A stretch of 47,856 nucleotides of DNA from Deltaproteobacteria bacterium (GTDB taxonomy: Bacteria > Desulfobacterota > DSM-4660 > Desulfatiglandales > Desulfatiglandaceae), in the NCBI GenBank assembly GCA_021737785.1, contig JAIPDI010000043.1, positions 1-47,856 on the forward strand, given 5' to 3'. Position 1 is the first letter of the stretch. Each line of letters opens with the position of its first letter. Shown in pieces: positions 6,211 through 47,746 of the stretch. The translations under genes were made by a program, and so were the position numbers. The notes under the pieces were generated by a model. It was not told the origin of the DNA and did no database searches. It was given only the letters and a program-made list of their open reading frames with translations.

Positions 6211-6270
6211 GATGAGGAATCGAGGATTCGGGGATTGAGGAATCGAGGGATTGAGGAATTGAAATTTTGA
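6211..6270. repeat. Degenerate 7-8 bp repeat (GGATTGAGG / GGAATCGA family)
   Basis: Alternating ATTGAGG, AATCGAG and GATTCGG units run through the leader of the gene starting at 6340. A near-identical array occurs at 37716-37780 before cheW, and a complementary one at 27657-27695. Confidence 0.7.
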
Positions 6271-6339: not shown

Positions 6340-8316
6340 GTGACGCCGCATCGCACCATGTTCTGGCAGATCGACCATGTTTGGGTGTTCTATACCCTGG
6401 CTGCCCTTGCGACGATCCTGTTCCTGGCGGGTCTGGGGGCTCATGTCCGGGTATGGAGATCATCTTCAGGATCCCGGGAAATTTCCTTTTCAGCAGAGGC
6501 CCTCAAAAGAATGATCCTGGACGCACTACTGGGAAGGCGCCTTTTCCTGGGGGATTGGCCCGCAGGTCTGATGCACCTCTTCATCTTCTGGGGATTCCTG
6601 ACGCTTTTTGTCGGCACCGCCATCCTCTCGATCCATCATTACGCTGCTTCGTTCCTGGCGGGTACGGCCTATCTGATCTTCTCCATCGCCATGGACGCGG
6701 CCGGGCTTCTCCTCCTGGCAGGGATCATCTGGGCCTTGATCCGCCGGTATCTTCAGCGCGTTCCACGGCTTGAACGCCGGCTCGAGGATGGGGTCGTGCC
6801 CCTGTGGCTCCTGATGATGGTGGTTTCAGGCTTTATGGTGGAAGGGGCGAGATTGTCTGCTCAACAACCGGAATGGGGTGCCTGGTCCTTTGCAGGCTGG
6901 TGGGCGAGCAGCCTTTTCACAGTCTCAACCGGCGAGACCGTTTATCCATCGCTCTGGTGGCTGCATACCCTCCTCTCTTTGAGCTTCATCGCCGTCATCC
7001 CTTTCACAAAGCTGTTTCATATCCTGGGGGCCCCTACCGCCATCTATTTCCAGGGCGCGGCCAAACCCGCAATACTGGGGATGGAAGACGGGGAAGGCGG
7101 GTTCGACCTGGGGGATGCGATCTTTTTTGACGGCTGCATGCGGTGTGGCCGGTGTGTGGCGGCCTGTCCCTCCGCAGGGGCAGGAGAACCCTTTTCCCCC
7201 CGGGCGTTTGTTCAGGCCATGCGGCACAGATTGTGGCGGGAAGAGTTTCCATGGGGGGATATCCGGTTCATGAGCCGGAATGAAGATCCCCTGGCGGATG
7301 ACGTCTTCTGGTATTGCACCACCTGCCGTGCCTGTCTCGAGGTCTGCCCGGTTTACGGCGCTGCATTCGAGGCGGTGACCAAAGAGCGGGTGCTGGCCGT
7401 GGAAGAGGGGACCGGGGTCCCCGCCCTGCTGAGCCAGACCCTTGAGAAGCTCTTCAAGTACAATAACCCCTGGGAGTCATCCAAACGAAAGCGGGGGGCC
7501 TGGGCCGACGGGCTGGACCTGATGGATCTCACCAAAAAGGGGGTGGAGGCGGATCTCTGCTATTTTGTGGGGTGCACCACCTCCTTTGATGACACGGCCC
7601 AGAGGATCGCCCGATCCTTTTCAAGCGTCCTTCAGACTGCGGGCGTTAATTTCGGCATTCTGGGTAAGAAAGAACCCTGCTGCGGCGATATCGCCCGCCG
7701 AGTAGGGGAACTGGGCCTGTTTGAGGAGGAGAAGGAAGGATGCATGGCGCTTTTTGACACCTGCGGCATTACCGAGGTGGTTACCTCTTCTCCCCATTGC
7801 TTCCACACCTTCCAAAATGAATATCCGGACGCCCCCTTCAGGGCCCGCCATTATACCCTGGTTCTAAAGGAGCTTCTGGACAAGGGAAGGCTTTCGTTCA
7901 AAAGGGACATCCCGGCCGTTGTTACCTATCACGATCCCTGTTATCTGGGCCGGCACAACCGGATTTTTGACGAGCCGAGGGAGATCATCCGCGCCATACC
8001 CGGCATCCGGCTCAAGGAGATGACCCACCACCGGGCCGACAGCCTCTGCTGCGGGGGCGGGGGAGGGCGGATGTGGCAGGACCTTCAGGGCGAGGTCAAG
8101 ATGAGTCATGTCAGGATCCGGGAGGCCGCGGCCACCGGGGCGGAAATCCTCATCACCGCCTGCCCCCTGTGCCTTATCATGCTGGAGGATGCCCGCAAGG
8201 CCGTGGGGCTGAAACCGCCTTTCCGGATTATGGATTTGAATGAACTGGTGTTGGAGGCGATATCGAACGCGGAATTCGGAACGCGGAACGCGGAACCGGG
8301 GACGCAAGGCCCATAG
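6340..8316 (+). CDS. Membrane Fe-S oxidoreductase, ETF:menaquinone oxidoreductase type
   Basis: The 658-residue fusion has a NarI/DsrM-like membrane domain of about 5-6 helices (residues 8-235), then two [4Fe-4S] motifs, CMRCGRCVAACP (about 267) and CTTCRACLEVCP (about 327). Two CCG (DUF224/HdrD) domains follow, starting at CYFVGC (about 407) and HDPCYLGRH (about 530), with LCCGGGGG and ACPLC closing the second. Proteins of this plan carry electrons between EtfAB and menaquinone in syntrophs and sulfate reducers. The adjacent etfA and etfB support that role here. The start is GTG, with GGGGGAGAGG 7 bases upstream; an ATG at 6358 is the alternative. The last ~18 residues (NAEFGTRNAEPGT) are encoded by a GGAACGC heptamer array that runs on past the stop, so the natural C-terminus probably ended near residue 640. 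Its C-terminal half is closely similar to the protein at 13248. Confidence 0.88.
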   Translation: MTPHRTMFWQIDHVWVFYTLAALATILFLAGLGAHVRVWRSSSGSREISFSAEALKRMILDALLGRRLFLGDWPAGLMHLFIFWGFLTLFVGTAILSIHHYAASFLAGTAYLIFSIAMDAAGLLLLAGIIWALIRRYLQRVPRLERRLEDGVVPLWLLMMVVSGFMVEGARLSAQQPEWGAWSFAGWWASSLFTVSTGETVYPSLWWLHTLLSLSFIAVIPFTKLFHILGAPTAIYFQGAAKPAILGMEDGEGGFDLGDAIFFDGCMRCGRCVAACPSAGAGEPFSPRAFVQAMRHRLWREEFPWGDIRFMSRNEDPLADDVFWYCTTCRACLEVCPVYGAAFEAVTKERVLAVEEGTGVPALLSQTLEKLFKYNNPWESSKRKRGAWADGLDLMDLTKKGVEADLCYFVGCTTSFDDTAQRIARSFSSVLQTAGVNFGILGKKEPCCGDIARRVGELGLFEEEKEGCMALFDTCGITEVVTSSPHCFHTFQNEYPDAPFRARHYTLVLKELLDKGRLSFKRDIPAVVTYHDPCYLGRHNRIFDEPREIIRAIPGIRLKEMTHHRADSLCCGGGGGRMWQDLQGEVKMSHVRIREAAATGAEILITACPLCLIMLEDARKAVGLKPPFRIMDLNELVLEAISNAEFGTRNAEPGTQGP

Positions 8317-8392
8317 TGCATAGGGCAGGGAGCAGGGGGCCGGGAGCAGGGAGGAGAAGGCGGAGGACCGACGACAGAGGACGGAAGCCCCC
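8264..8392. repeat. Heptamer arrays overrunning a gene end (GGAACGC, then GCAGGGA)
   Basis: GGAACGC-like heptamers start inside the coding sequence at about 8264. They continue to the stop at 8316 and are followed by a GCAGGGA-family array and GGAGGAC/GACGGAAG units. Two sequence families of the same 7-base period are thus joined end to end across a gene boundary. Confidence 0.75.
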
Positions 8393-8529: not shown

Positions 8530-9519
8530 ATGACTGATGTATTGATACTGGGAGAGATCAAGGACGGATTGCCGGATCTGAGGACCCTTGAGCTTTTGAG
8601 CGCGGGAAAGAATCTGGCGGATGGCGCCGGGGGCGGGTATTCCGTCCTGTTCATTGGGGACGCGGTTTCAGTGGCTGCGGACAAGGCCGGGGCCTATGGG
8701 CCTCACAGGGTGTACAGGGTGGAACATCCTTTGCTGAAGGGCTTTCAGCCCGATCTTTGGTTGAGCGCCCTGGAGCAGGCGTGCAGCCGGATCCATCCGT
8801 CCGTGCTTCTCATGAGCCACGGATTTGTGGGCATGGATCTGGGTCCGAGGCTGGCCTGCCGATTGAACAGCCGGCTGACCACCGACTGCATCGACCTGTC
8901 CATCGATCCTGAAGACGGCCTTCTGCTGCGGACCAAGGCGGTTTCAGGGGGAAATGCCATCTCGGTGTTCAAGTGCCCTGGCGAGCCCCAATTGGCCACG
9001 GTGAGGGGAAAGGTCTTTGCGCCTGCCGAGCCGGGTCAAACGCCGGGGGAGATGGTGGATATTCAAGTGGAAATCGATCCATCCATGATCCGGGTGGAAT
9101 CCATCGAAATCGTCGAAGAGGAAACCGTCTCGCTGGACAAGGCCAACGTGGTGGTGGCCGGCGGCGCCGGACTGGGCGAGGCCGACGGGTTTGAACTTCT
9201 GGAGGAGCTGGCAGCGGCCCTGCGCAGATCCTTCGGCAATGTGATGATCGGGTGCAGCCGGGTTGCCGTGGACAAGGGGTGGATCTCCTCCGACCATCAG
9301 GTGGGGCTCACCGGCACCATGATCTCTCCGGATGTCTACGTGGCGGTGGGGATATCGGGGGCCATTCAGCACCTGGTGGGCATGGTCCATTCCAAGAAGA
9401 TCATCGCCATCAACACGGACCCTGCATGCAACATATTCAAGGTGGCGGATTACGGCATTGTCGAGGATTATGAAGATATCGTTCCCGCGCTGGTGGAGAA
9501 ACTGGAGGAGTTGTCATGA
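8530..9519 (+). CDS. etfA: Electron transfer flavoprotein subunit alpha
   Basis: The 329-residue protein is ETF alpha. The N-terminal domain begins MTDVLILGEIKDG. The conserved C-terminal FAD domain starts near residue 195 and includes GCSRVAVDKGW, DHQVGLTGTMISPDVYVAVGI, SGAIQHLVGM and INTDPACNIFKVADYGIVED. With EtfB it forms a soluble FAD heterodimer that takes electrons from acyl-CoA dehydrogenases. Here the likely acceptor is the membrane Fe-S protein encoded just upstream. I chose ATG 8530 because AGGGGG lies about 7 bases before it. The longer frame back to 8449 would translate a heptamer repeat array. EtfB follows with an ATGA overlap, so the pair is co-translated. The order alpha then beta is less common than beta then alpha. 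Confidence 0.94.
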   Translation: MTDVLILGEIKDGLPDLRTLELLSAGKNLADGAGGGYSVLFIGDAVSVAADKAGAYGPHRVYRVEHPLLKGFQPDLWLSALEQACSRIHPSVLLMSHGFVGMDLGPRLACRLNSRLTTDCIDLSIDPEDGLLLRTKAVSGGNAISVFKCPGEPQLATVRGKVFAPAEPGQTPGEMVDIQVEIDPSMIRVESIEIVEEETVSLDKANVVVAGGAGLGEADGFELLEELAAALRRSFGNVMIGCSRVAVDKGWISSDHQVGLTGTMISPDVYVAVGISGAIQHLVGMVHSKKIIAINTDPACNIFKVADYGIVEDYEDIVPALVEKLEELS

Positions 9520-10444: not shown

Positions 10445-12088
10445 ATGGCGGACAAATCTTATGACGCGATAGTAATTGGCGGGGGACATCACGGGACGAT
10501 TATCGCCCCCTATCTGGCCAAAGCCGGTTTGAAAGTCGGGGTCTTCGAGCGGCTGGATCATCTGGGCGGGGGGGCCGTTTCCTTTGACGACTCGCCGGCC
10601 CCCGGTTTCCGGGGCAACTTCTGCGCCCATTTCACGCGGTTTTACGGCCATCCGGCCTACAGGGAATTCAACCTTCGCGACGAGGGGCTGGAGTATGCGT
10701 TTCCGGACACCAATGAAGCGGCCGTGTTTGACGACGGGACCTCGTATGTGGCCTATGCCGGGTTTCCGGTAAAGGACCCTCAGACCGGAACAACCGAATA
10801 CAGCGAGACCAATGTCAAGAAGACCTACGACCAGATTGTCCGCTTTTCCAAGGCCGATGCCGAGGCGTATCTGTACTGGACGGAAAAATACAAAGAAATC
10901 ATCCGTCCGGCATTTGGGAGGCACAGGTACTCGGTGCCCACGCCCTATGGCGTGCCGGATGAAATCGAAAAGCTCATGAGCGATCCCAGGAGCGGACTGG
11001 ATCCCTCCATGCAGTTCATGACCGCCAAGGAATGGGCCCACTTTGTCTTTGAAAGCCCGGAGTTGCGGATCCTCACCATGCGGGGCTTCCTCACCTCATG
11101 CGGTATCTACCCGGACGATGTGCCGGGCATCATGTATGCCTTTGCCACCCTCCATCTGGTCCTGGGATGGGAGACCGCGGCCATTGCCCGGGGAGGCACC
11201 CAGTCCATTACAGACTCCCTGGTGTCGGCCGGAAAAAAACTGGGGGTGGAGTACTTCATCAATTCCGAGGTGGACAGGGTCCTGATCGAAAACGGGAAGG
11301 CCAGGGGCATCAAACTGCTGGACGGCACCGAGATCGAGGCCAAGCAGATGGTGGTCTCGGACAATGCCACCCCCCAGTTGTTTCTCCGAATGATCGGGGA
11401 AGATCACCTGAACACCCCGATGAAGCGCAAGGTGGACACCTATTTCTTCGACCGAGCCCAGCTCTTCTGGGGACCCATCGCCGTTCACGAACTCCCGAAC
11501 TACAAGGCGGCCAAGGACAACCCGGACATCAACCGCACCCCCCGCACCTATTATCTGCCAAAGGATCTGGCATACACGGAAGACAAATACATGCACGAGA
11601 TCTTCCTCCTGGGCATGCCCTCCAAGTTCCACCTCCTGTCGGCCCCGGACAGTATCTGGGACCTCACCCGTGCCCCGGAAGGGAAGCACAGCATCCATGT
11701 GGAAGAGTTCACTGCGCCCGCCCGCATCTTCTCCCGGAAGGAATGGCGGCAACTCCATGATGAGTTCATCGACGCCATGATGGAGCAGTGGCGCAAATAC
11801 GCCCCCAACATGACCAAAGACAATCTGATCGGGGAGCGTGTGGCCACGCCCATTGATATTCAGGACACCCATCTGGACATGCGGGAAGGGGGCTGGTCCG
11901 AAGGGAACTGCGGCGGTTCCCAGAGCGGCCGGTTCCGGGGGCTGCCGGGCGGACTCAGGACCTTTGTCAAAGGCCTGTACATGTGCTCCTCGGGCGTTGC
12001 CGGGGGACCTGCCATCGGACGGGGGTCCAGCTACAACTGCTACCAGGTGATCGCCGAGGACTACGGGCTCCGGAAGCCGGAGTTTTAA
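10445..12088 (+). CDS. FAD-dependent oxidoreductase, phytoene-desaturase-like
   Basis: The 547-residue flavoprotein opens with a Rossmann FAD motif (IVIGGGHHGTIIAPYLAKAG, residues 10-29) followed by VFERLDHLGGGAVS. The C-terminal FAD-contacting segment (LYMCSSGVAGGPAIGRGSSY) is typical of the phytoene desaturase/CrtI-CrtO and amine-oxidase-like superfamily. No carotenoid genes are nearby, and the ETF and SDR neighbours suggest it oxidises or reduces a C-C bond of a catabolic intermediate. A clear TAGGAGG lies 8 bases before the ATG. The 137-base gap after etfB holds no gene. Length is normal for the family and no membrane helix is evident. Substrate and electron partner are unknown. Confidence 0.85.
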   Translation: MADKSYDAIVIGGGHHGTIIAPYLAKAGLKVGVFERLDHLGGGAVSFDDSPAPGFRGNFCAHFTRFYGHPAYREFNLRDEGLEYAFPDTNEAAVFDDGTSYVAYAGFPVKDPQTGTTEYSETNVKKTYDQIVRFSKADAEAYLYWTEKYKEIIRPAFGRHRYSVPTPYGVPDEIEKLMSDPRSGLDPSMQFMTAKEWAHFVFESPELRILTMRGFLTSCGIYPDDVPGIMYAFATLHLVLGWETAAIARGGTQSITDSLVSAGKKLGVEYFINSEVDRVLIENGKARGIKLLDGTEIEAKQMVVSDNATPQLFLRMIGEDHLNTPMKRKVDTYFFDRAQLFWGPIAVHELPNYKAAKDNPDINRTPRTYYLPKDLAYTEDKYMHEIFLLGMPSKFHLLSAPDSIWDLTRAPEGKHSIHVEEFTAPARIFSRKEWRQLHDEFIDAMMEQWRKYAPNMTKDNLIGERVATPIDIQDTHLDMREGGWSEGNCGGSQSGRFRGLPGGLRTFVKGLYMCSSGVAGGPAIGRGSSYNCYQVIAEDYGLRKPEF

Positions 12089-12971: not shown

Positions 12972-13247
12972 AGGCAGGGAGCAGGGAGCAGGGGGGAGAA
13001 AAAAGGCGCAAGGCGCAAGGCGTGAGACGAAAGTGGTTCGTTTCTTGTCGTTCCGCGTTCCGAGCTCCGCGTTCAACAGGGTGGGCATGAGGCTGCTTTC
13101 AATGTTCGTAGCTCCAAGCTCCCTGCTCCTCGCTCGAACCGTTCCGCGCTCCGCGTTCCGAGCTCCGCGTTCGAACGTTTGTTGATGAGGGGGGTCATGT
13201 CATTCTTCATTATTCACTCTTCATTATTCACTGATAGAGGCTGATTC
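12972..13247. repeat. Mosaic of four heptamer families
   Basis: In order: GCAGGGA units (about 12974-13000), AAGGCGC/AAGGCGT units (about 13004-13030), GTTCCGC/GTTCCGA/GCTCCGC units (about 13047-13075 and again 13140-13173, with GCTCCAA/GCTCCCT between), then ATTCTTC/ATTATTC units (about 13202-13231). All share a 7-base period, and the block fills nearly the whole spacer between the SDR and HdrD-like genes. Confidence 0.8.
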
Positions 13248-17400: not shown

Positions 17401-17513
17401 CCCTGTGCAAGGGGTGCGGGCTCTGCGTGTCTTCGTGCAGAAGCGGCGCCCTGGACATCAAGGGGTTCAGCGAGGAACAGACCTTGTGTTTGATTGAGGC
17501 GGCGACAGGGTAA
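14445..17513 (+). CDS. Double HdrA-like flavoprotein with terminal ferredoxin domain (BamE-like)
   Basis: This roughly 1022-residue protein is two HdrA units in tandem. The first has FAD motif GGGVSG (22-27), the HdrA-specific cluster Cys66/69/78 (CSMCILSP then IEC), an inserted ferredoxin motif (Cys118/121/124/128) and a further Cys group near 176-190. The second FAD motif, IGGGISG, is near residue 607. The C-terminus has two [4Fe-4S] motifs, CAGCGVCQEIC (about 956) and CKGCGLCVSSC (about 988). HdrA is the flavin electron-bifurcating subunit of heterodisulfide reductases, and BamE is the benzoyl-CoA reductase counterpart. All redox positions seen are Cys, with no in-frame TGA suggesting selenocysteine. 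ATG 14445 (AGGA 9 bases upstream) is preferred over TTG 14421. No MvhD/BamF or NADH-dehydrogenase-type partner follows, so the electron partner is open. Confidence 0.88.
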   Translation: MDPTHSVPSSDRHKVGAVLVVGGGVSGIQAALDTADSGFKVYLVDRGPSIGGRMSQLDKTFPTNDCSMCILSPKFIECATNPNISVITDTEVDGIEGDAGNFEVFLSRKPRYVDPAKCTGCGTCSEYCPVSVPDPYNEGLSTLKSIHLPFAQAVPAVSVIDPAHCLFLLRKECRICAPACRNQAIDFHQHEETLKIEVGSVILAPGYEPFQPEQQSQYGYGRFQNIVTSLEFERLLSASGPNRGALRRPSDGKPPKKIAWIQCVGSRDATAGHTYCSAVCCMYAMKQVILSKENLPDLDAVILHNDIRAYGKGFERYYERARKTPGVRFIWSKTSVLTETPGTGDVVLRYRVNGTGVQDEAFDLVVLSVGMSPPDGNRALAKRLSVATNGHGFCETRGFFPLETSRPGIFACGTFRGPMDIPDSVTMASGAASLASEFLSDRRGTQITEISYSPERDIAGEPPRIGVFVCDCGTNIVKGVDVAGVVEYAKGLEGVVHVEEDTFACSIDAITRMAGTIREKRLNRVVVAACTPRTHEPVFQGVLKKAGLNPHLFEMTNIREHCSWVHMGDRQTATRKAEDLVRMAVFKSRLLSPLGRLSYAAAKAALVIGGGISGMVSALALARQGVHVHLVEKDEELGGMGRRIRFTIEGGDVGAYVRGLIREVYADLGIQVYTEAELVDLSGYVGNFSSRIRTGNGRLIKTISHGVTIVATGAEEFRPHTFLYGEDPRVSTLLELEDAMDAHPEAFRECSALVMILCVGSRDPERPYCSRVCCAQAVKDALKLKTIHPEMEITVLYRDMRTYGFREDYYQEAADRGVVFIRYDADDKPDVRMVEAGGRSVLRVTVTEPVLGQRLMIDADRVALAAATIPPAGNRTLSQLLKVPLTEDGFFMEAHMKLRPVDFATDGIFMAGLAHGPKFMDESIAQARAAVSRAMTILSRSEIMAGGTICVVNDQRCAGCGVCQEICPFHAIEVMPETQRAVVHEALCKGCGLCVSSCRSGALDIKGFSEEQTLCLIEAATG

Positions 17514-17848
17514 GGCATTAGGCGCAAGCCGTCAGGCATGAGGCGTGAGGCGTCAGGCATGAGGCGTGAGGCGTTCGTTTTTTGTCGTTCCGCGTTCCGA
17601 ACTCCGCGCTCCGAGTTCAAAAGCGTGGTTATCACGCTGTCACTTTAGAGTCTTTGACTGTAATCCCGCCTTGCGGGACAACGTGCGGAGAAGTTTTGGT
17701 GAACCGCGAAGGCGCAAAGGACGCGAAGAGGTCTTGATGGGTTCGTTATTCGGTAATGGCCTTTGGATAAAAGAGATCTTTGTGTCTTAGTGGCTTTGGG
17801 AATTTATAATTTTGGCATTTTCGGCGCTTGCTATCTGAAAGGATCATC
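17514..17848. repeat. Repeat-filled spacer before the AOR gene
   Basis: AGGCGTG/AGGCATG/AGGCGTC heptamers run from about 17514 to 17572. GTTCCGC/GTTCCGA/ACTCCGC/GCTCCGA units follow to about 17622. The rest holds a TCCCGCC/GCGGGA hairpin (about 17667-17682), a CGCGAAGGCGCAAAGGACG stretch and an AT-rich TTTGTGTCTTAGTGGC segment near 17780, followed by the AOR ribosome binding site. This 335-base gap may contain a separate promoter for the AOR gene, but none is convincing. Confidence 0.65.
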
Positions 17849-26890: not shown

Positions 26891-27652
26891 TCAAGAAAAA
26901 AAACTCCCCAGCATCTGGTCCAGGGCCTCTGACACCGGCATGCGGATGACGACATCCGCCTCCGTATCCTGAGGCGTGGGGTCCCGGTTGACGATCATCA
27001 GCCTGGCCCCGCTCCGGGCCGCGTGCAGGGGCACGGATGCTGCAGGGTAGACCACCAGGGAAGAGCCCAGGACGATACAGAGGTCGCATTCGCCTGCATA
27101 GCGGATGGATTGTTCCATCTCCGCCTCGGGCATGGCCTGGCCGAACGAGATGGTATCGGGCTTTAATATGCCGCCGCAGTCATCACAATAGGGGACCTTG
27201 GTCCCTGAACGCAACCGGCCCTGGATCTCATCCCTGTCATATCTCTTTTTGCAGCTCAGGCACGATACCGAGATTGCCGTACCGTGGAGTTCAATGATCT
27301 TTTCCGGGGAGTTGCCCGCCTTGTGGTGGAGATGGTCGATATTCTGTGTCACGATGGCTAATAGTTTTCCCTGGTCTTCCAGGGTTTTGATGGCAACGTG
27401 CGCCCGGTTGGGCATTGCATCCTGTATGACGCCGTAAAACTCGGTGCTCATCTGCCAGTATTTTTCCCGGGCGGTTTCATCAGAAATAAACCTCTGAAAA
27501 TAGAAGTCCGCAGGATCATACTTCTCCCATATGCCCCCGGGACTTCTGAAATCGGGAATTCCCGATTCCGTGCTGAGTCCGGCCCCGGTAAATACCAGGA
27601 TCTTTTGGGCCGCAGCGATGATCTCGGCCCCCTTTGCGATCAATGGTTCCAT
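26891..27652 (-). CDS. Sir2-family NAD-dependent protein deacylase
   Basis: The 253-residue sirtuin carries FTGAGLSTESGIPDFRS (21-37), TQNIDHLH (102-109), catalytic His123 in IELHGT, and a zinc knuckle of Cys131, Cys134, Cys156 and Cys159. GSSLVVYPAASVP and VNRDPTP complete the NAD pocket. It removes acyl groups from lysines using NAD. In anaerobic acyl-CoA degraders such enzymes counter spontaneous or enzymatic acylation, but that link is inference. The ATG at 27652 is chosen because GAGGAG lies 7 bases before it; the ATG at 27667 lacks a site. Its leader overlaps an 8-bp repeat array. Confidence 0.93.
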   Translation of the reverse strand: MEPLIAKGAEIIAAAQKILVFTGAGLSTESGIPDFRSPGGIWEKYDPADFYFQRFISDETAREKYWQMSTEFYGVIQDAMPNRAHVAIKTLEDQGKLLAIVTQNIDHLHHKAGNSPEKIIELHGTAISVSCLSCKKRYDRDEIQGRLRSGTKVPYCDDCGGILKPDTISFGQAMPEAEMEQSIRYAGECDLCIVLGSSLVVYPAASVPLHAARSGARLMIVNRDPTPQDTEADVVIRMPVSEALDQMLGSFFS

Positions 27653-27656
27653 TCCT

Positions 27657-27695
27657 GAGCTCCTCAATCCCTGAATTCCTGAATTCCTGAATTTT
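27657..27695. repeat. 8-bp repeat array (ATTCCTGA family)
   Basis: Units GCTCCTCA, ATCCCTGA, ATTCCTGA, ATTCCTGA and ATTTTGAT follow each other with an 8-base period at the 5' end of the sirtuin gene. On the minus strand this matches the GGATTGAGG family at 6211 and 37716, and it supplies part of the sirtuin ribosome binding site. Confidence 0.7.
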
Positions 27696-37715: not shown

Positions 37716-37780
37716 TGATTGAGGGGTTCCGGGATTGAGGAATTCTGGGATTCAGGGATTGAGGGATTGAGGGATTTAGA
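37716..37780. repeat. 8-bp repeat array (GGGATTGA family)
   Basis: ATTGAGGG, TTCCGGGATTGAGG and GGGATTGA units recur every 8 bases between the receiver-like gene and cheW, as at 6211-6270. Confidence 0.75.
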
Positions 37781-40779: not shown

Positions 40780-43700
40780 ATGAATTCCTCAAGCATCATC
40801 GGCCTGGTCAACAATGGAGCGCTTCTGCTGGCCCTGGCCTTGATATACGACATGTTGGGAATGCGGCCTCGCGGCGGGAAGCCGGAGCCCCGGCAGTTGG
40901 TTACCGGCATGATTATCGGCCTCATGGGCATCGCGGTCATGATGAACCCGTGGCAGTTTGCACCAGGGATTGTATTCGATACGCGCTCGGTCCTGCTCAG
41001 CATGTCGGGGCTTTTCTTCGGGACGGTGCCGACACTGTTGGCTGCGCTCATGACGGCCGGTTTCCGCCTCTCCCTGGGCGGGGCAGGGGCATGGCCGGCA
41101 GTCGCCGCAATTGCGGCTGCGGCAGGCATCGGCCTGGCATGGCGACATCTGCGGCGCAACAAAGACCGCGAACCCTCCATAGGCGAATTGTTTCTCCTGG
41201 GCGTTGCGACCCATGTGGCCATGCTCCTGTGCATGCTCCTTCTGCTGCCCTGGCCCGTGGGCCTGGGGGTGGTCCGCAAAATCGGTCTGCCGGTCATGCT
41301 GATATATCCCCTGAGCACTGTGCTCCTGGGGCGGCTAATGTCAATCCGGGGGGAGCGTCGACGGATGGAGGCGGCGCTTCAAAAAAGCGAGAAGCGTCAT
41401 CGGACCATCCTCCATACCGCCATGAACGGGTTTCTCATGACGGACACGGAAGGCCGCATCCTGGAGGTCAACCACGCCTATTGCCGCCTGACCGGGTACA
41501 GCGAAGCGGAACTCCTGACCATGCATATCCATGATCTGGATGCCTTCGAGGAGGCGGACGACAGTGCCCGGCGCATGCAAAGGATAGCGGAACAGGGCCA
41601 GGACCGGTTCATGTCCCGGCACCGGCGCAAGGACGGGAGCATATTTGATGTGGAGGTGAGCGCCCAGTACAGCGCTGAGGAAGGCGGGCACTTCGTCGCA
41701 TTTGTTGAGGACATCAGCGAGCGGATCGTCAGGGAACAGCGGCTCAAGGAGAGCGAGGAACGGTTCCGCATGATTGCAGAAAACAGTGGATCCATGATCG
41801 GCGTAATGGACGCACTGGGAAACTATGAATACGTGAATCCGGCTCATCGAATACTGGGATATGAACCTGAAGAACTGGTAGGCACTTCCGCCTTCGCCCT
41901 GGTCCATCCCGGGGATGTAGAGCGGCTGGCCGGGATCCTTCATCAGAAAGGGCCCAACCGCGAACTCTCCAGAACCACCGCAGAGTACCGCGCCATAGGC
42001 AAGGACGGCAGCACGTTTATTCATGAAGGGAACTTTGATTCAATTCGAAACAGCAAGGGGGAGCTGAGAAAGATCGTATTTGTATGCGATGACATTACCG
42101 AGCGAAAACGCGTGCAGGATGAACTGGTCCACGAGCGGAAAATGCTGGCCATGGTCATCGAGGGGACCCGTGCGGGGACATGGGAGTGGTACGTTCAGAC
42201 AGGGGAGACGGTGTTCAATGATCGCTGGGCTGAAATGCTGGGGTACACCCTGAAAGAACTTCAGCCCATCAGCATCCGAACCTGGATGGATTTATGCCAC
42301 CCGGAAGACCTTGAACGGTCCGATCGGTTGCTGAAGGAACATTTCTCGGGTAAGCTTCCTTATTACGAGTGCGAATTCCGGATGCGGCACAAGGACGGTC
42401 GTTGGGTGTGGATAGAGGACAGGGGCAAGGTGGTCAAATGGTCTGAGCAGGGGGCGCCTCTCTTGATGACCGGGACCCACTTGGATGTGAGGGGGCGCAA
42501 GGAGGCAGAGGCGGAGCGACTCGTCCTGGAACGTCGGCTTCAACAGGTGGAGAAGGCCGAAAGCCTTTCGCGCATGGCCGGGGCCGTGGCCCATCACTTC
42601 AATAACCTGTTGGGCGCTGTTATGGGCAACCTGGAGCTGGCCCGGATGGATCTCACGGAAGGAGAAGGTGTTGCCAAACGGCTCACAGAAGCTCATAAGG
42701 CGACGCGGCGGGCGGCGGATATGAGCCGTTTGATGCTGACCTTCCTGGGGCAAACCCCTTCAAGCCCTATTCTCATCGATCTTTCCAAAACCTGTCTGGA
42801 CCGCCTGGCAGAGCTTCGGGGAGAGATCCCGGATCGGGTGGCCGTGGAAACCGATCTTCCCATGCCAGGGCTGGTGGTCAAGGCCGATTCGGGCCAGATA
42901 GGTCAGGTTCTTGCCATCCTGGTCACCAATGCCTGGGAGGCCATGGGTGATGCAGGAGTTCGGATTCGCGTGTCGCTTTCAACAGCAAACAGGCGCGATA
43001 TTCGGGGAGATCACCGTTTCCCTGTAAATTGGCAACCTTCAACGGATGTCTACGCCTGTCTGACCGTGTCTGACAGCGGCAGCGGGATAAGTCCCGCGAT
43101 TATCGACCGAATTTTTGACCCGTTCTTTACGGAAAAGTTCACAGGGAGGGGACTGGGGCTGGCGGTGGCTCTGGGGATCGTTAAATCGTTCAAGGGATGC
43201 ATTGCGGTGGAGAGCCACGTCGGAACGCGGCGAACGGGGAACCCGGATCTCGGAACGCGGGACGGGGCCAATGCGGAACAAATAGGGCTCGGAGTTACTT
43301 CGCATCCGGGAGGGGGATATGGAGGGAGTGTGTTCCGGATCTTTCTGCCTATGTCGTCCGAACGGCTCCCCGAGACAGTCCTGGAGAAACCGGTGACCGA
43401 GCAAGAGATGGCCGTGGGCGGCGTTATCCTGCTGGTGGAGGACCAGAAGATGGTCCGCGATGCAGCCGAAGCCATGCTGGAGCATTTCGGGTTCGAGGTG
43501 CTCACGGCCGGAGACGGGATCGAGGCCGTAAATATCTTCCGCGACAGGCAGGCAGATATCCGTCTGGTGCTCACCGACCTGAGCATGCCGCGCATGAACG
43601 GCTGGGAGACACTTAAGGCTCTGCGAAAGATACGGCCCGATATCCCCGTGATCCTGGCCAGCGGCTATGATGAGGCCCGGGCCATGTGCGGAGACCATGC

Positions 43701-43785
43701 CGATAATCCCCAGGTCTTCCTCTCCAAGCCGTATCAGATGGCAAGCTTAAAGGCGGCCGTGAACAAGGCTCTTGGGGAAAATTGA
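40780..43785 (+). CDS. Membrane hybrid histidine kinase (5TM-PAS3-HK-REC)
   Basis: The 1001-residue sensor has a 5TM-5TMR_LYT-type membrane domain (residues 1-190; GIVFDTRSVLLSMSGLFFG is typical). Three PAS domains follow (about 200-320, 325-450, 455-585), then HisKA with AVAHHFNNLLG, HATPase (VSDSGSGISP, GRGLGLAVALGI) and a C-terminal receiver (phospho-Asp in LVLTDLSMPRMNGW, Lys in FLSKPYQM). The HATPase domain carries an insertion of about 32 residues between VESHVG and GGSVFRIFLP (residues about 815-846). Its first half is encoded by a GGAACGC/GGGAACC repeat array (43219-43266). The ATG lacks a strong ribosome binding site. It stands alone, without an adjacent output regulator. The ligand may be a cell-wall-related or small molecule by analogy with LytS; this is speculative. 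Confidence 0.9.
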   Translation: MNSSSIIGLVNNGALLLALALIYDMLGMRPRGGKPEPRQLVTGMIIGLMGIAVMMNPWQFAPGIVFDTRSVLLSMSGLFFGTVPTLLAALMTAGFRLSLGGAGAWPAVAAIAAAAGIGLAWRHLRRNKDREPSIGELFLLGVATHVAMLLCMLLLLPWPVGLGVVRKIGLPVMLIYPLSTVLLGRLMSIRGERRRMEAALQKSEKRHRTILHTAMNGFLMTDTEGRILEVNHAYCRLTGYSEAELLTMHIHDLDAFEEADDSARRMQRIAEQGQDRFMSRHRRKDGSIFDVEVSAQYSAEEGGHFVAFVEDISERIVREQRLKESEERFRMIAENSGSMIGVMDALGNYEYVNPAHRILGYEPEELVGTSAFALVHPGDVERLAGILHQKGPNRELSRTTAEYRAIGKDGSTFIHEGNFDSIRNSKGELRKIVFVCDDITERKRVQDELVHERKMLAMVIEGTRAGTWEWYVQTGETVFNDRWAEMLGYTLKELQPISIRTWMDLCHPEDLERSDRLLKEHFSGKLPYYECEFRMRHKDGRWVWIEDRGKVVKWSEQGAPLLMTGTHLDVRGRKEAEAERLVLERRLQQVEKAESLSRMAGAVAHHFNNLLGAVMGNLELARMDLTEGEGVAKRLTEAHKATRRAADMSRLMLTFLGQTPSSPILIDLSKTCLDRLAELRGEIPDRVAVETDLPMPGLVVKADSGQIGQVLAILVTNAWEAMGDAGVRIRVSLSTANRRDIRGDHRFPVNWQPSTDVYACLTVSDSGSGISPAIIDRIFDPFFTEKFTGRGLGLAVALGIVKSFKGCIAVESHVGTRRTGNPDLGTRDGANAEQIGLGVTSHPGGGYGGSVFRIFLPMSSERLPETVLEKPVTEQEMAVGGVILLVEDQKMVRDAAEAMLEHFGFEVLTAGDGIEAVNIFRDRQADIRLVLTDLSMPRMNGWETLKALRKIRPDIPVILASGYDEARAMCGDHADNPQVFLSKPYQMASLKAAVNKALGEN
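43219..43266. repeat. Heptamer array inside a kinase gene (GGAACGC family)
   Basis: GGAACGC, GGCGAAC, GGGGAAC and GGAACGC units sit in frame within the HATPase-coding region. The same family occurs at 8264-8305 and 47105-47130 and, as the complement, at 13047-13075 and 17586-17622. Confidence 0.75.
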
Positions 43786-44179
43786 GCATAGGTTGCTGGT
43801 CCGAGCGAAGCGTAGATCCCGCGGTACGCGGGATTGCGGGTTGCTCGTTGCTGGTTCGTTGGGTTTCTTGAGTTCATTGGGTTTTAGCTGACTTCTGGCC
43901 TCTGTCTTCCGACCTCCGTCTTTGTTGCTCGTTGCTGCTTACTCGTTGCTGGTTACCGCTTCTTGGTTTACATCTTGCTTTCAGCTTTCAGCTTAGAGCT
44001 TGTTTCTCTGACTTTTGACCTCTGCTCCTTGCTGCCCCGTTTGTAATGTGCCCGTGAGGGCATGAGGAGTGAAGCCGGCAAACACGTGACGGCGTCACTA
44101 TGAACAGCGAATGAGGCACCGTGTTGCAGGGCGCCCGTTTGTAGTGCTCGTAAGGGCATCTCAGGGAAGGACTGTTTGT
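43786..44179. repeat. Repeat-filled spacer between two kinase genes
   Basis: It contains the reverse palindromic element (43793-43855), a 9-bp GGGTTTCTT array (about 43858-43888) and CTTCCGA/CCTCCGT heptamers (about 43895-43925). GTTGCTC/GTTGCTG/GTTACCG heptamers (about 43924-43965) and CTTTCAG/CTTAGAG units (about 43976-44000) follow. The GTTTGTAATGTGCCCG with GAGGGCAT block (44039-44063), the GCAAACACGTGACGGCGTCA block (44079-44098) and another GTTTGTAGTGCTCG with AAGGGCAT (44138-44159) come last, just before the kinase ribosome binding site. Confidence 0.75.
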
Positions 44180-47100
44180 ATGACGCAATTTCTTGATATT
44201 CGAACCCTATCCTTCGTCATGGGGGCGACGTTTTTCGTCTTCGCCCTTTCAATGGTCTATTATGCGGTGAGCAGCAAGACATATCCCGGATTCAAGGCGT
44301 GGACTGTGGGAATCCTCCTGGAATGTCTGGCCTTCATGCTCATTGCACTGCGTCACCTTCTCCCTGATGCCATCACGATTATTGTTGCAAATTCACTTAA
44401 TTATTCAGCCTTGATCCTCCTCTATCTCGGGTTCAGGTCTTTTGCCGGATGGCCTGTGAAACCCCGCTTCCATATTGTTGTAGGATTTCTGGTCATGCTG
44501 ATTTTTTTCCCTCTCTTTACCTATATCAGGCCGAGTGTGAATGCGCGCATCTGCATCATCTCCGCTGCATCGGCTTTTTATTTCCTCTCCTGTGCCGTCG
44601 TCCTTGCGAGGGATATCCGTCAGGTTCTTGGAAGCCTGAACAGGCTCCTCATGGGGTCTCTACTGGGAATGTCCATGGTCATGGCACTCCGGGGGATTTT
44701 TTTCCTGATCCCTGCAAATGCCGTCGATAATTTTATGTCTTCGGGAGCTTTTCACGGGATGGCCCTGCTTGGCGTATTTGTCTTTTCGGTTCTGTTTATT
44801 ATCGGTCTGATACAGTTGAACTCCCAGATGATCGAAAAAGAATTATTCTGGGAACAGAAACGGCTCGGAGAAAGAGAAGAAAGCTACAGACACCTTGTGG
44901 AAGATTCGCTTCAAGGTGTGGTCGTTGCACAGGCCGACCCGCTGAGACTCAGCTTTGTCAGCAAACCGATGGCACTCATTACAGGGTACTCACATGAAGA
45001 ATTGAAAGCCTTCGGTTCCGAGCAAATCATGGAACTGATCCATCCGGAAGACCGGGGAAGGCTTTTTCAACATCTCAGAGACCGTCTTGCAGGAAAAGAG
45101 GCGCCCACCCAGTACGAGGCCCGGATCATCCATAAAACCGGGGAAACCCGGTGGGTCCTGATTTACAGCACCCGGATCATGCACGGAGGCGCCCCTGCCA
45201 CCCATACCGCGTTTCTGGACATTACCGATCGAAAAAAGGCGCAGGACGCCATGCAAAGCGCCAACGCGCGGATGCGTGCCGTGATGGAGTCGGTTCAGGC
45301 CGGGATCATTCTGGTCCGGGTTGAAGACCGCGTCATTGTGGAGGCCAATCCCGCGGCCGTACGAATGATCGGGGCCACGGCCGATCGTGTGATCGGCAGG
45401 GTCTGCAATGAATTCATATGCCCTGCAGAGACCGGGAAATGCCCGGTGATGGACCTTGGGCAGGAAATGGACAATGCGGAAAGAAGCATCCTGACTTCGA
45501 GCGGGACGATCCCGGTGCTGAAGACCGTCACGCGACTGTGGATCGATGGCCGGGAATATCTCCTCGAAAGCTTTGTGGATATCTCCCAATTGAAACAGGC
45601 AGAGGCGCAACTTCTGGAGATCAACCTGGAACTTGAAACCGCTACGGTCCGCGCCAACGAGATGGCTGTTCAGGCGGAGCTGGCCAGCGCGGCCAAGAGC
45701 GAGTTCTTAGCCAACATGAGCCACGAAATTCGGACCCCCATGAACGGGGTGATCGGCATGACCGAACTCCTGCTGGATACGAATTTGACCGAGGAGCAAC
45801 GACGGTATGCCGAGACCGTACGGGCCAGCGCCCAATCGCTGATGGTGCTTATCAATAACATCCTCGATTTTTCCAAGATTGAGGCCAGCAAACTCGATCT
45901 TGAAATCCTCGATTTTGACCTGCAATCTCTAATTGACGATTTTGCGGACACCCTGGCCCTCCAGGCGCACAAAAAAGGCCTGGAGCTGGTGTGCGGCATG
46001 GACCCGGATGTCCCGGCCCTCCTACGGGGCGACCCCGGGCGCCTTCGCCAGATCCTGATCAACCTAGCGGCCAACGCGGTCAAGTTCACCCATGCAGGTG
46101 AGGTGCTGATCCGCGTTTCGATGGTGGAGGAACTACAAAATAAGCAAAAGGGTGAGAGCGATATACTTCTTCGGTTTTCGGTGCGCGACACCGGGATCGG
46201 GATTCCTTCCGACCGGTTGCAGGATCTCTTCTCTCCCTTTACCCAGGTGGATGGGTCCACCACCCGCAAGTACGGCGGCACCGGGCTGGGGCTGTCCATC
46301 TCCAAACAGTTGGCCGAGATGATGGGCGGAAAGATCGGCGTGAAAAGTGAAGCGGGAAAAGGTTCGGAGTTCTGGTTTACGGCGCGTCTGGAAAAACAAC
46401 CCCAGGGAGGGATGGCCCAACCGCATCCTCCCGCGAACCTGCACGGGATACGCGTATTGATTGTGGATGACAACGCCGCCAACAGAGAAATCCTGAATGC
46501 CCGAATGACATCGTGGGGGATGCGCGTATCCGAAAGCATGGACGGCGAAAGGGCGATCGAGTCGCTTAACAAGGCGTTGGATGAGAACGATCCCTTTCAG
46601 TTTGCCGTCATCGACATGCAAATGCCGGGCATGGACGGTGAGGCCCTCGGCCGCATCATCAAATCCGACAGCCGTTTGGCAAGTACCCGAATGGTCATTC
46701 TGACCTCCATGGGGGTTCGCGGCGACACCGGCCGATTTATTGAGATCGGATTTGACGCCTGCCTGACGAAACCGGCACAAACCCTGGAACTGAAGGATGC
46801 TCTTTCCCAGGTACTGGAAAAAAGCAGGGATGAGACGCCGATATCCCGTCCCATAGCCACGCGTCCCACGGTCCGCGAAATCCAGAATCTTTTTGCCGGC
46901 CGCAGGGCCCGTATCCTCCTAACCGAGGACAACATCACCAATCAGCAGGTGGCACTGGCCATCATCAAGAAGCTGGGCCTGGACGCCGACGCCGTAACCA
47001 ACGGCGCCGAGGCCATCAAGTCGCTCCAGACGATTCCCTACGACCTGGTCCTCATGGATGTTCAGATGCCCGTGATGGATGGGCTGGAAGCCACGAGGAG

Positions 47101-47746
47101 AATTCGAAACGCGGAACGCGGAACGGGGAAGGGGGAAGAGGCACCTCCGACCTCTGACTTCCGTCTTCCGAGCTCCGGGCTCCGGGCTCCGACTTCCGGC
47201 ATCCCCATCATCGCCATGACCGCCCACGCCATGCAGGGGGACCGGGAGAGATGCTTGAAGGCGGGAATGAATGACTACATGGCGAAACCGATTTCGCCCC
47301 AGATCCTGGCAGAGACCTTGAAGAAGTGGCTCCCTAAAGAGAATAATGAACTCAGAGCAATGGACAATGAACCCGCGAAACCCGCATCACTCATCTCTTC
47401 ACATGCCTCATTGATTTGGGACCGTTCCGGCATGCTGGAACGGATGATGGGGGATGATGAAGTGGCCGGGGTGATTGTGGGAGCCTATCTGTTGGAGATC
47501 CCAAGGCAGATTCAGACTCTTAAGGAACACCTGTCGAGGGTAGACGCTCCGGGCGTTCGGCTTCAGATCCACACCATCAAGGGAGCGGCTGCAAACATGG
47601 GCGCCGAGGCCCTGCGTTCGGTGGCCTTTGAGATGGAAAAAGCGGCCGTGGACGGAGATCTGGACGCGGTCGGGAGAGCCATCCAAGAACTGGAAACGCA
47701 GTTTCAGCGCTTAAAGAATGATGGTCTCGTAAAAAGTAAAAGTTAA
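44180..47746 (+). CDS. Membrane hybrid histidine kinase with two receivers and HPt domain
   Basis: The 1188-residue phosphorelay sensor starts with about seven membrane helices (residues 8-215), then two PAS domains (about 232-355 and 360-480) and HisKA with NMSHEIRTPMNGVIGM (near 510-525). HATPase (VRDTGIGIPSDR, GGTGLGLSISK) spans about 620-745, the first receiver about 755-885, the second receiver about 909-1050, and the HPt domain about 1080-1180 with phospho-His1131 (QIHTIKGAAANMG). This is a BarA/ArcB-like tripartite relay. Between RRIR and IPIIAMTAHAM the second receiver contains about 32 extra residues encoded by heptamer arrays (47105-47200). ATG 44180 follows AGGGAAGG; the ATG at 44111 lies within a dispersed repeat. 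The partner regulator is unknown. Confidence 0.92.
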   Translation: MTQFLDIRTLSFVMGATFFVFALSMVYYAVSSKTYPGFKAWTVGILLECLAFMLIALRHLLPDAITIIVANSLNYSALILLYLGFRSFAGWPVKPRFHIVVGFLVMLIFFPLFTYIRPSVNARICIISAASAFYFLSCAVVLARDIRQVLGSLNRLLMGSLLGMSMVMALRGIFFLIPANAVDNFMSSGAFHGMALLGVFVFSVLFIIGLIQLNSQMIEKELFWEQKRLGEREESYRHLVEDSLQGVVVAQADPLRLSFVSKPMALITGYSHEELKAFGSEQIMELIHPEDRGRLFQHLRDRLAGKEAPTQYEARIIHKTGETRWVLIYSTRIMHGGAPATHTAFLDITDRKKAQDAMQSANARMRAVMESVQAGIILVRVEDRVIVEANPAAVRMIGATADRVIGRVCNEFICPAETGKCPVMDLGQEMDNAERSILTSSGTIPVLKTVTRLWIDGREYLLESFVDISQLKQAEAQLLEINLELETATVRANEMAVQAELASAAKSEFLANMSHEIRTPMNGVIGMTELLLDTNLTEEQRRYAETVRASAQSLMVLINNILDFSKIEASKLDLEILDFDLQSLIDDFADTLALQAHKKGLELVCGMDPDVPALLRGDPGRLRQILINLAANAVKFTHAGEVLIRVSMVEELQNKQKGESDILLRFSVRDTGIGIPSDRLQDLFSPFTQVDGSTTRKYGGTGLGLSISKQLAEMMGGKIGVKSEAGKGSEFWFTARLEKQPQGGMAQPHPPANLHGIRVLIVDDNAANREILNARMTSWGMRVSESMDGERAIESLNKALDENDPFQFAVIDMQMPGMDGEALGRIIKSDSRLASTRMVILTSMGVRGDTGRFIEIGFDACLTKPAQTLELKDALSQVLEKSRDETPISRPIATRPTVREIQNLFAGRRARILLTEDNITNQQVALAIIKKLGLDADAVTNGAEAIKSLQTIPYDLVLMDVQMPVMDGLEATRRIRNAERGTGKGEEAPPTSDFRLPSSGLRAPTSGIPIIAMTAHAMQGDRERCLKAGMNDYMAKPISPQILAETLKKWLPKENNELRAMDNEPAKPASLISSHASLIWDRSGMLERMMGDDEVAGVIVGAYLLEIPRQIQTLKEHLSRVDAPGVRLQIHTIKGAAANMGAEALRSVAFEMEKAAVDGDLDAVGRAIQELETQFQRLKNDGLVKSKS
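47105..47200. repeat. Two heptamer arrays inside a receiver domain
   Basis: CGGAACG/GGGAAGG units (47105-47140) are followed by about eight CCTCCGA/CTTCCGT/GCTCCGG units (47145-47200), all of 7-base period, and together an in-frame insertion. The first half is roughly the complement of the second, so it could also fold back on itself. Confidence 0.8.

Follow-up and report, generated by a model that had tools for sequence, protein, structure and literature searches.

Tandem heptanucleotide elements lie within and between the genes of Geobacter metallireducens, where 49 GGGACCG elements and a second class with the consensus MTYCTGA were reported (PMC2700814). In Xanthomonas and Nostoc, GGGNATC repeats are mostly intergenic, with some located in genes (PMC4692102). 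TAACTGA repeats occur in marine Beggiatoaceae and cyanobacteria, and proteins could tolerate them at their ends or between modules (PMC4679880). Among long simple repeats, heptamer arrays are reportedly the most frequent kind in many bacteria, and polymerase slippage was proposed for them (cited in PMC4679880). Furthermore, the repeated DNA of the Rickettsia palindromic elements stands in frame in unrelated protein genes and is thought to be compatible with the protein fold (reviewed in PMC10969869).

The arrays described here are similar to the G. metallireducens heptanucleotides in being multicopy, tandem and located in and between genes. However, the latter are putative regulatory elements, whereas many mixed unit families were found here, with inserts in conserved catalytic and receiver loops (PMC2700814). 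The GGGNATC repeats comprise one or two unit types and were studied as G-quadruplexes, and the available part of that work leaves the recipient protein loops unanalysed (PMC4692102). The TAACTGA repeats are likewise heptamer direct repeats, but they consist of a single fixed heptamer located mostly upstream of start codons, whereas the present units are heterogeneous and fall in mid-domain loops (PMC4679880). The Rickettsia palindromic elements are ~150 bp long and MITE-like and carry a conserved peptide, in contrast to the short direct heptamers without a conserved peptide found here (PMC10969869). The conserved family peptide that marks such elements was lacking, i.e., the peptide of the insert studied here was unique and inserts at the same site in three kinases (HK1, L016 and L017) had no peptide in common. 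Two features of bacterial heptameric tandem repeat arrays were observed, namely a 7-nt period above chance and units dispersed genome-wide.

The window, which is the whole stretch of 47,856 nt that was analysed, encodes a hybrid histidine kinase of 1001 residues, termed HK1 (40780..43785, plus strand; ORF and Pfam). The reading frame and the Pfam matches gave the domain order 5TM-5TMR_LYT, PAS domains, a HisKA-like region (HHFNN), HATPase_c and a receiver. HisKA scored 21.0 bits, under the cut-off of 26.9; the H-box AHHFNN was present and the profile matched the DHp-CA of CckA. The HATPase_c match (42886..43350, plus strand; residues 703-817, profile positions 2-102 of 111) scored 56.0 bits against a cut-off of 26.4 and ended at the insert, by which the domain was broken near its end. 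The receiver (43426..43761, plus strand; Response_reg, residues 883-994) scored 67.5 bits against a cut-off of 30.2 and was in the same frame as the kinase. The nearest solved structure was that of CckA (5idj), and the fold was that of the CckA and ZraS kinase domains. Despite the insert, the reading frame was unbroken and the motifs of both the kinase and the receiver were preserved, in agreement with the initial annotation that the insertion keeps the frame and leaves the rest of the domain intact. The insert is a deviation in one HATPase_c loop, with membership of the histidine kinases kept, and kinase activity would presumably be retained. The adjacent gene, HK2 (44111..47746, plus strand; ORF and Pfam), encodes a hybrid kinase of 1211 residues with PAS, HisKA, HATPase_c, receivers and Hpt.

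The insert of HK1 comprised 96 nt and 32 residues (TRRTGNPDLGTRDGANAEQIGLGVTSHPGGGY; 43225..43320, plus strand; residues 816-847) between the flanks VESHVG and GGSVFRIFLP, as defined by homologue alignment and loop length. The extra residues reported initially at 43219-43320 were thus recovered, with the start of the exact insert moved to 43225. The insert is repeat-derived DNA. The heptamer core (43228..43267, plus strand) was composed of NNNGGAA-type units (GGAACGC, GGAACCC and GGGACGG), and GGAACGC began at 43222. The lag-7 self-match score of the region was 14.9, whereas all remaining lags between 2 and 29 gave 7.1 or less. Shuffling of the codons of the insert reached the lag-7 score with P = 5e-5, and shuffling of the bases reached it in 0 of 20,000 trials. 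Moreover, about 13 further arrays in the same genome matched the insert core (26-39 nt aligned, 80-90% identity, best E = 5e-4), and the earlier claim that the first half consists of GGAACGC-type heptamers like those of intergenic arrays was borne out. The lag scan detected no repeat in the second half (~43268..43320, plus strand), which may be decayed array or filler; hence, only ~40-45 nt of the insert are directly array-like. The source assembly consists of 96 contigs with an estimated contamination of 3.11%, and repeats are prone to misassembly, so an error of assembly or binning was considered, as was an insertion unrelated to the arrays whose repetitive look is due to chance. Such an explanation is extremely improbable in view of the codon-shuffle result, the exactly kept frame and the similar loop arrays found in six genomes that were assembled separately.

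The usual short turn between the last two HATPase_c strands was absent from HK1. The distance from GLGL to GSxF was 54 residues in HK1 versus 22-23 in each of the 33 further kinases sampled from its genome that could be measured. Of 92 HATPases taken from 80 other genomes, 89 had a distance of 21-23 residues; the remaining three had ordinary short turns as well, which were missed by the search pattern. The closest homologues, L014 (60% identity) and L015 (58%), come from two genera of the family other than that of HK1. Both of them, together with the own-genome paralogue L004, aligned with a gap of 32-33 residues at the insert and were complete otherwise, so that alignment with close homologues confirmed the residues as extra. 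The same residues without the nucleotide repeat were encountered in no unrelated genome, since a search of 60 other genomes for the insert peptide and its flanks gave no match, and the peptide was unique in 61 when its own genome was included. No orthologue of HK1 was recognised in either congener. In the tree, HK1 joined the insert-free L014 and L015 (support 100/99), and the insert-bearing kinases L016 and L017 paired apart from it (96/96), which indicates at least two independent arrivals at the hairpin.

The structure of HK1 was predicted with AlphaFold using 41 homologues, and the mean pLDDT was 82.7. The two strands bordering the insert (229-235 and 271-280 in model numbering) were both formed in the model. 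The pLDDT of the insert (239-270) was ~42-57, compared with 84-96 for the neighbouring strands. The insert is therefore placed by the model at the tip of the last HATPase beta-hairpin and is predicted to be disordered, with the adjacent strands intact. Its position in a hairpin loop and its predicted disorder suggest that it would be exposed to solvent. The held frame and the intact remainder of HK1 would also suit a selected functional loop, e.g., a partner-binding or regulatory element. This is very unlikely, because the loop is missing in the closest homologues, its peptide was seen only once across 61 genomes, it is predicted to be disordered, and the paralogue inserts at the same site have unrelated residues. 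The loop would probably be nearly neutral.

Arrays at the hairpin of HK1 were found in two further kinases, namely an own-genome paralogue on contig C22 (L017) and a congener kinase (L016), and in both of them the receiver was out of frame. The heptamers differed from those of HK1, being GGGAGCA in L017 and GGGAGCG followed by GGTCAGA in L016. The array of the C22 paralogue (C22:30108-31510) lay at ~10643-10675 on the minus strand of L019 (C22:20001-40000). An A7 run (GGAAGAAAAAAAGAAG) was observed within the kinase/receiver overlap of this paralogue; the receiver frame was open across the array, and an ATG was located within it. The composite hairpin array of the congener kinase, with GGGAGCG types and then four GGTCAGA units, occupied 8876-8957 on the minus strand of L161 (G001 C214), and the gene was frame-broken before the receiver. 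L160 was a weaker fourth case (score 8.1, P = 0.005). L175 and L173 were long by the hairpin measure, yet no 7-nt period was found there. A receiver on contig C18 (L003), which shared 74% identity with the HK1 receiver, was considered as part of another array-split kinase, but the idea was dropped: the contig end was 400 nt away, and no array preceded the receiver.

The frame moves by 1 per unit, and the hairpin arrays of L017 and L016 leave the receiver in another frame, as would be expected if gain and loss of units toggled the kinase-receiver frame and the array were kept as a phase-variable module. However, the arrays are all degenerate, which lowers slippage, and plain gene decay fits the frame-broken cases equally, so a contingency switch of this kind is unlikely. 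Keeping of the frame is no property of the insertion itself, given that L016 and L017, both related to HK1, have arrays in the hairpin and a broken frame.

The hairpin also offers native heptamer-like codons (VES-E-PG-QGS, e.g., GAAAGCGAACCGGGGCAGGGCAGT), which might have been expanded locally by slippage or template switching. In 31 insert-free kinases, the site resembled an array more closely than the remainder of its gene did (mean GC-matched rank 0.72, SE 0.04) and scored slightly above its synonymous recodings (difference 0.36, SE 0.11), and the change in HK1 is an addition of 32 residues and nothing else. However, the synonymous recoding indicated that the encoded peptide accounts for most of the resemblance. 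In addition, the paralogues mix unrelated heptamer types within an insert, as HK2 does with two, which makes imported composite arrays likelier than one seed. Birth in place from native codons is thus a possible origin, to be held only tentatively. The proposal that the hairpin is a hotspot at the DNA level was rejected as such and retained only as a rival, because the site is array-like but most of the effect was lost on synonymous recoding.

Arrays were also found in other loops and proteins. A composite in-frame array of GGAACGC and then ACTTCCG types lay in the alpha3-beta4 loop of a C-terminal HK2 receiver (47105..47204, plus strand). Its lag-7 scores were 22.3 and 29.0, ~44 combined, and it was a stronger repeat than the HK1 insert. 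The model of this receiver had a confident core, and the part of low confidence was the array-derived stretch from alpha3 to beta4. The loop was short in nearly all of the HK2 orthologues read, and L060 and L069 had loops of different heptamers. Among 59 receivers of the family, arrays were present in 10 of the 13 long alpha3-beta4 loops, a proportion that is no population frequency because long loops were fetched on purpose, and in none of the 45 shorter ones; one further row was an overrun of the pattern. No significant 7-nt period was found in receiver loops of native length. The array-bearing loops came from six separately assembled genomes of five genera and had different heptamer units. 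Another HATPase loop carried arrays in two congener kinases (L167 and L172). Composite in-frame heptamers were inserted between the halves of a KDO transferase-like glycosyltransferase of a congener (L168, G001 C168, 9635-9749, minus strand), and a tandem ArsA-type ATPase of 772 residues (L033, own genome C79, 9269-9413) was lengthened by ~50 residues through two in-frame arrays in its first half. In L177 (G038 C166, 2475-2536, minus strand), an array made up the linker that follows a receiver domain in a hybrid kinase. The 94 kb sampled from G038 contained three arrays, each of them within a kinase or receiver gene.

Intergenic arrays were also found in the window. Arrays of CTGACTT/CTGACCT, CTCGTTG and TTTCAGC types lay between HK1 and HK2 (43888..44001), a CGTTCCG/CGCTCCG array, which is the unit of the HK1 insert on the opposite strand, lay at 13140..13172, and a composite of AGGCATG/AGGCGTG and then GTTCCGC types lay at 17513..17618. 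The lag-7 scan also detected a composite array of GGAACGC and then GCAGGGA types (8265..8385, plus strand) across the 3' end of a gene; the array running over this end (8265-8316) gave the C-terminal extension NAEFGTRNAEPGTQGP. Another array crossing a gene 3' end with a C-terminal extension was observed at 18689-18760 of L019. Octamer arrays were seen beside the heptamers at 37717-37776, 6213-6262 and 27651-27693 of the window (GATTGAGG, TGAGGAAT and ATTCCTGA). Lag 8 was the second most enriched period and was weaker than lag 7.

The census covered 849 kb of the genome, of which 400 kb was unbiased and most of the remainder was picked for kinases; the division into coding and intergenic DNA rests on gene calls made in the present analysis. 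The whole sample contained 94 arrays of many unit families (~1.1 per 10 kb), the loci of 80 other genomes contained 0.15 per 10 kb, and simulated sequence contained none at the identical threshold. In the unbiased part, 27 arrays were found at lag 7 versus 0-1 at lags 5, 10 and 11. None of these 27 was mid-gene, though ~80% of the DNA was coding, and the genic ones touched gene ends. This depletion agrees with the published suppression of simple repeats mid-gene (cited in PMC4692102). The kinase-rich 408 kb had mid-gene arrays in HK1, HK2, a paralogous kinase and the tandem ArsA ATPase, and one more kinase with a mid-gene array was found on contig C31. The initial suggestion that repeats can enter genes at surface loops was extended to further loops and proteins, with the reservation that frame-keeping does not belong to the process. 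Moreover, the depletion of arrays from gene interiors indicates that surface loops are sites of survival and not evident targets.

Taken together, the extra residues of HK1 are very probably a degenerate heptamer array translated at the HATPase hairpin, and the loop would have passed the filter of selection, most likely as a tolerated rather than a useful element. The array, mobile or expanding, would have arisen at the tip of the last HATPase beta-hairpin or have been copied to it. Such arrays probably recur across the genome through replication slippage, template switching or recombination between similar arrays. The remainder of 7 on division by 3 is 1; hence, the unit is translated in each of the three frames in turn along an array, a unit free of stops stays open whichever frame is entered, and one unit gained or lost shifts the exit frame. 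Openness in all three frames was observed for 92 of 188 array strands versus 63.6 expected from base shuffling. The exit frame is set by the total length, and about one in three new arrays would restore the frame. Selection would purge most arrays that fall in the core of a domain or exit in the wrong frame, and those giving an exposed, disordered loop with the correct exit frame would persist.

Heptamer arrays and in-frame insertion of repeats were already known, and the new part is the recurrence at the same loops of catalytic domains. A limited check of the open-access literature found no report of different heptamer families repeatedly colonising the same histidine kinase or receiver loops, which is weak evidence of novelty because the check was limited. 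It is conceivable, if rather doubtful, that heptamer arrays are an ongoing source of loops in this family, that their stop-poor units, readable in every frame, settle again and again in the same tolerant loops of signalling proteins, and that turnover of units couples and uncouples kinase and receiver, thereby rewiring two-component signalling. By the time a new loop in a conserved domain is noticed, it is usually an old, unrecognisable indel, whereas the source DNA is legible here. Empty sites, in-frame loops and frame-broken copies coexist in related genomes, and these coexisting stages, together with the legible source, allow direct tests of how protein insertions are born and of which loops tolerate them. 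Residues such as GTRNAER or IQHPVSRI in the proteins of such genomes may be repeat-derived and not functional motifs.
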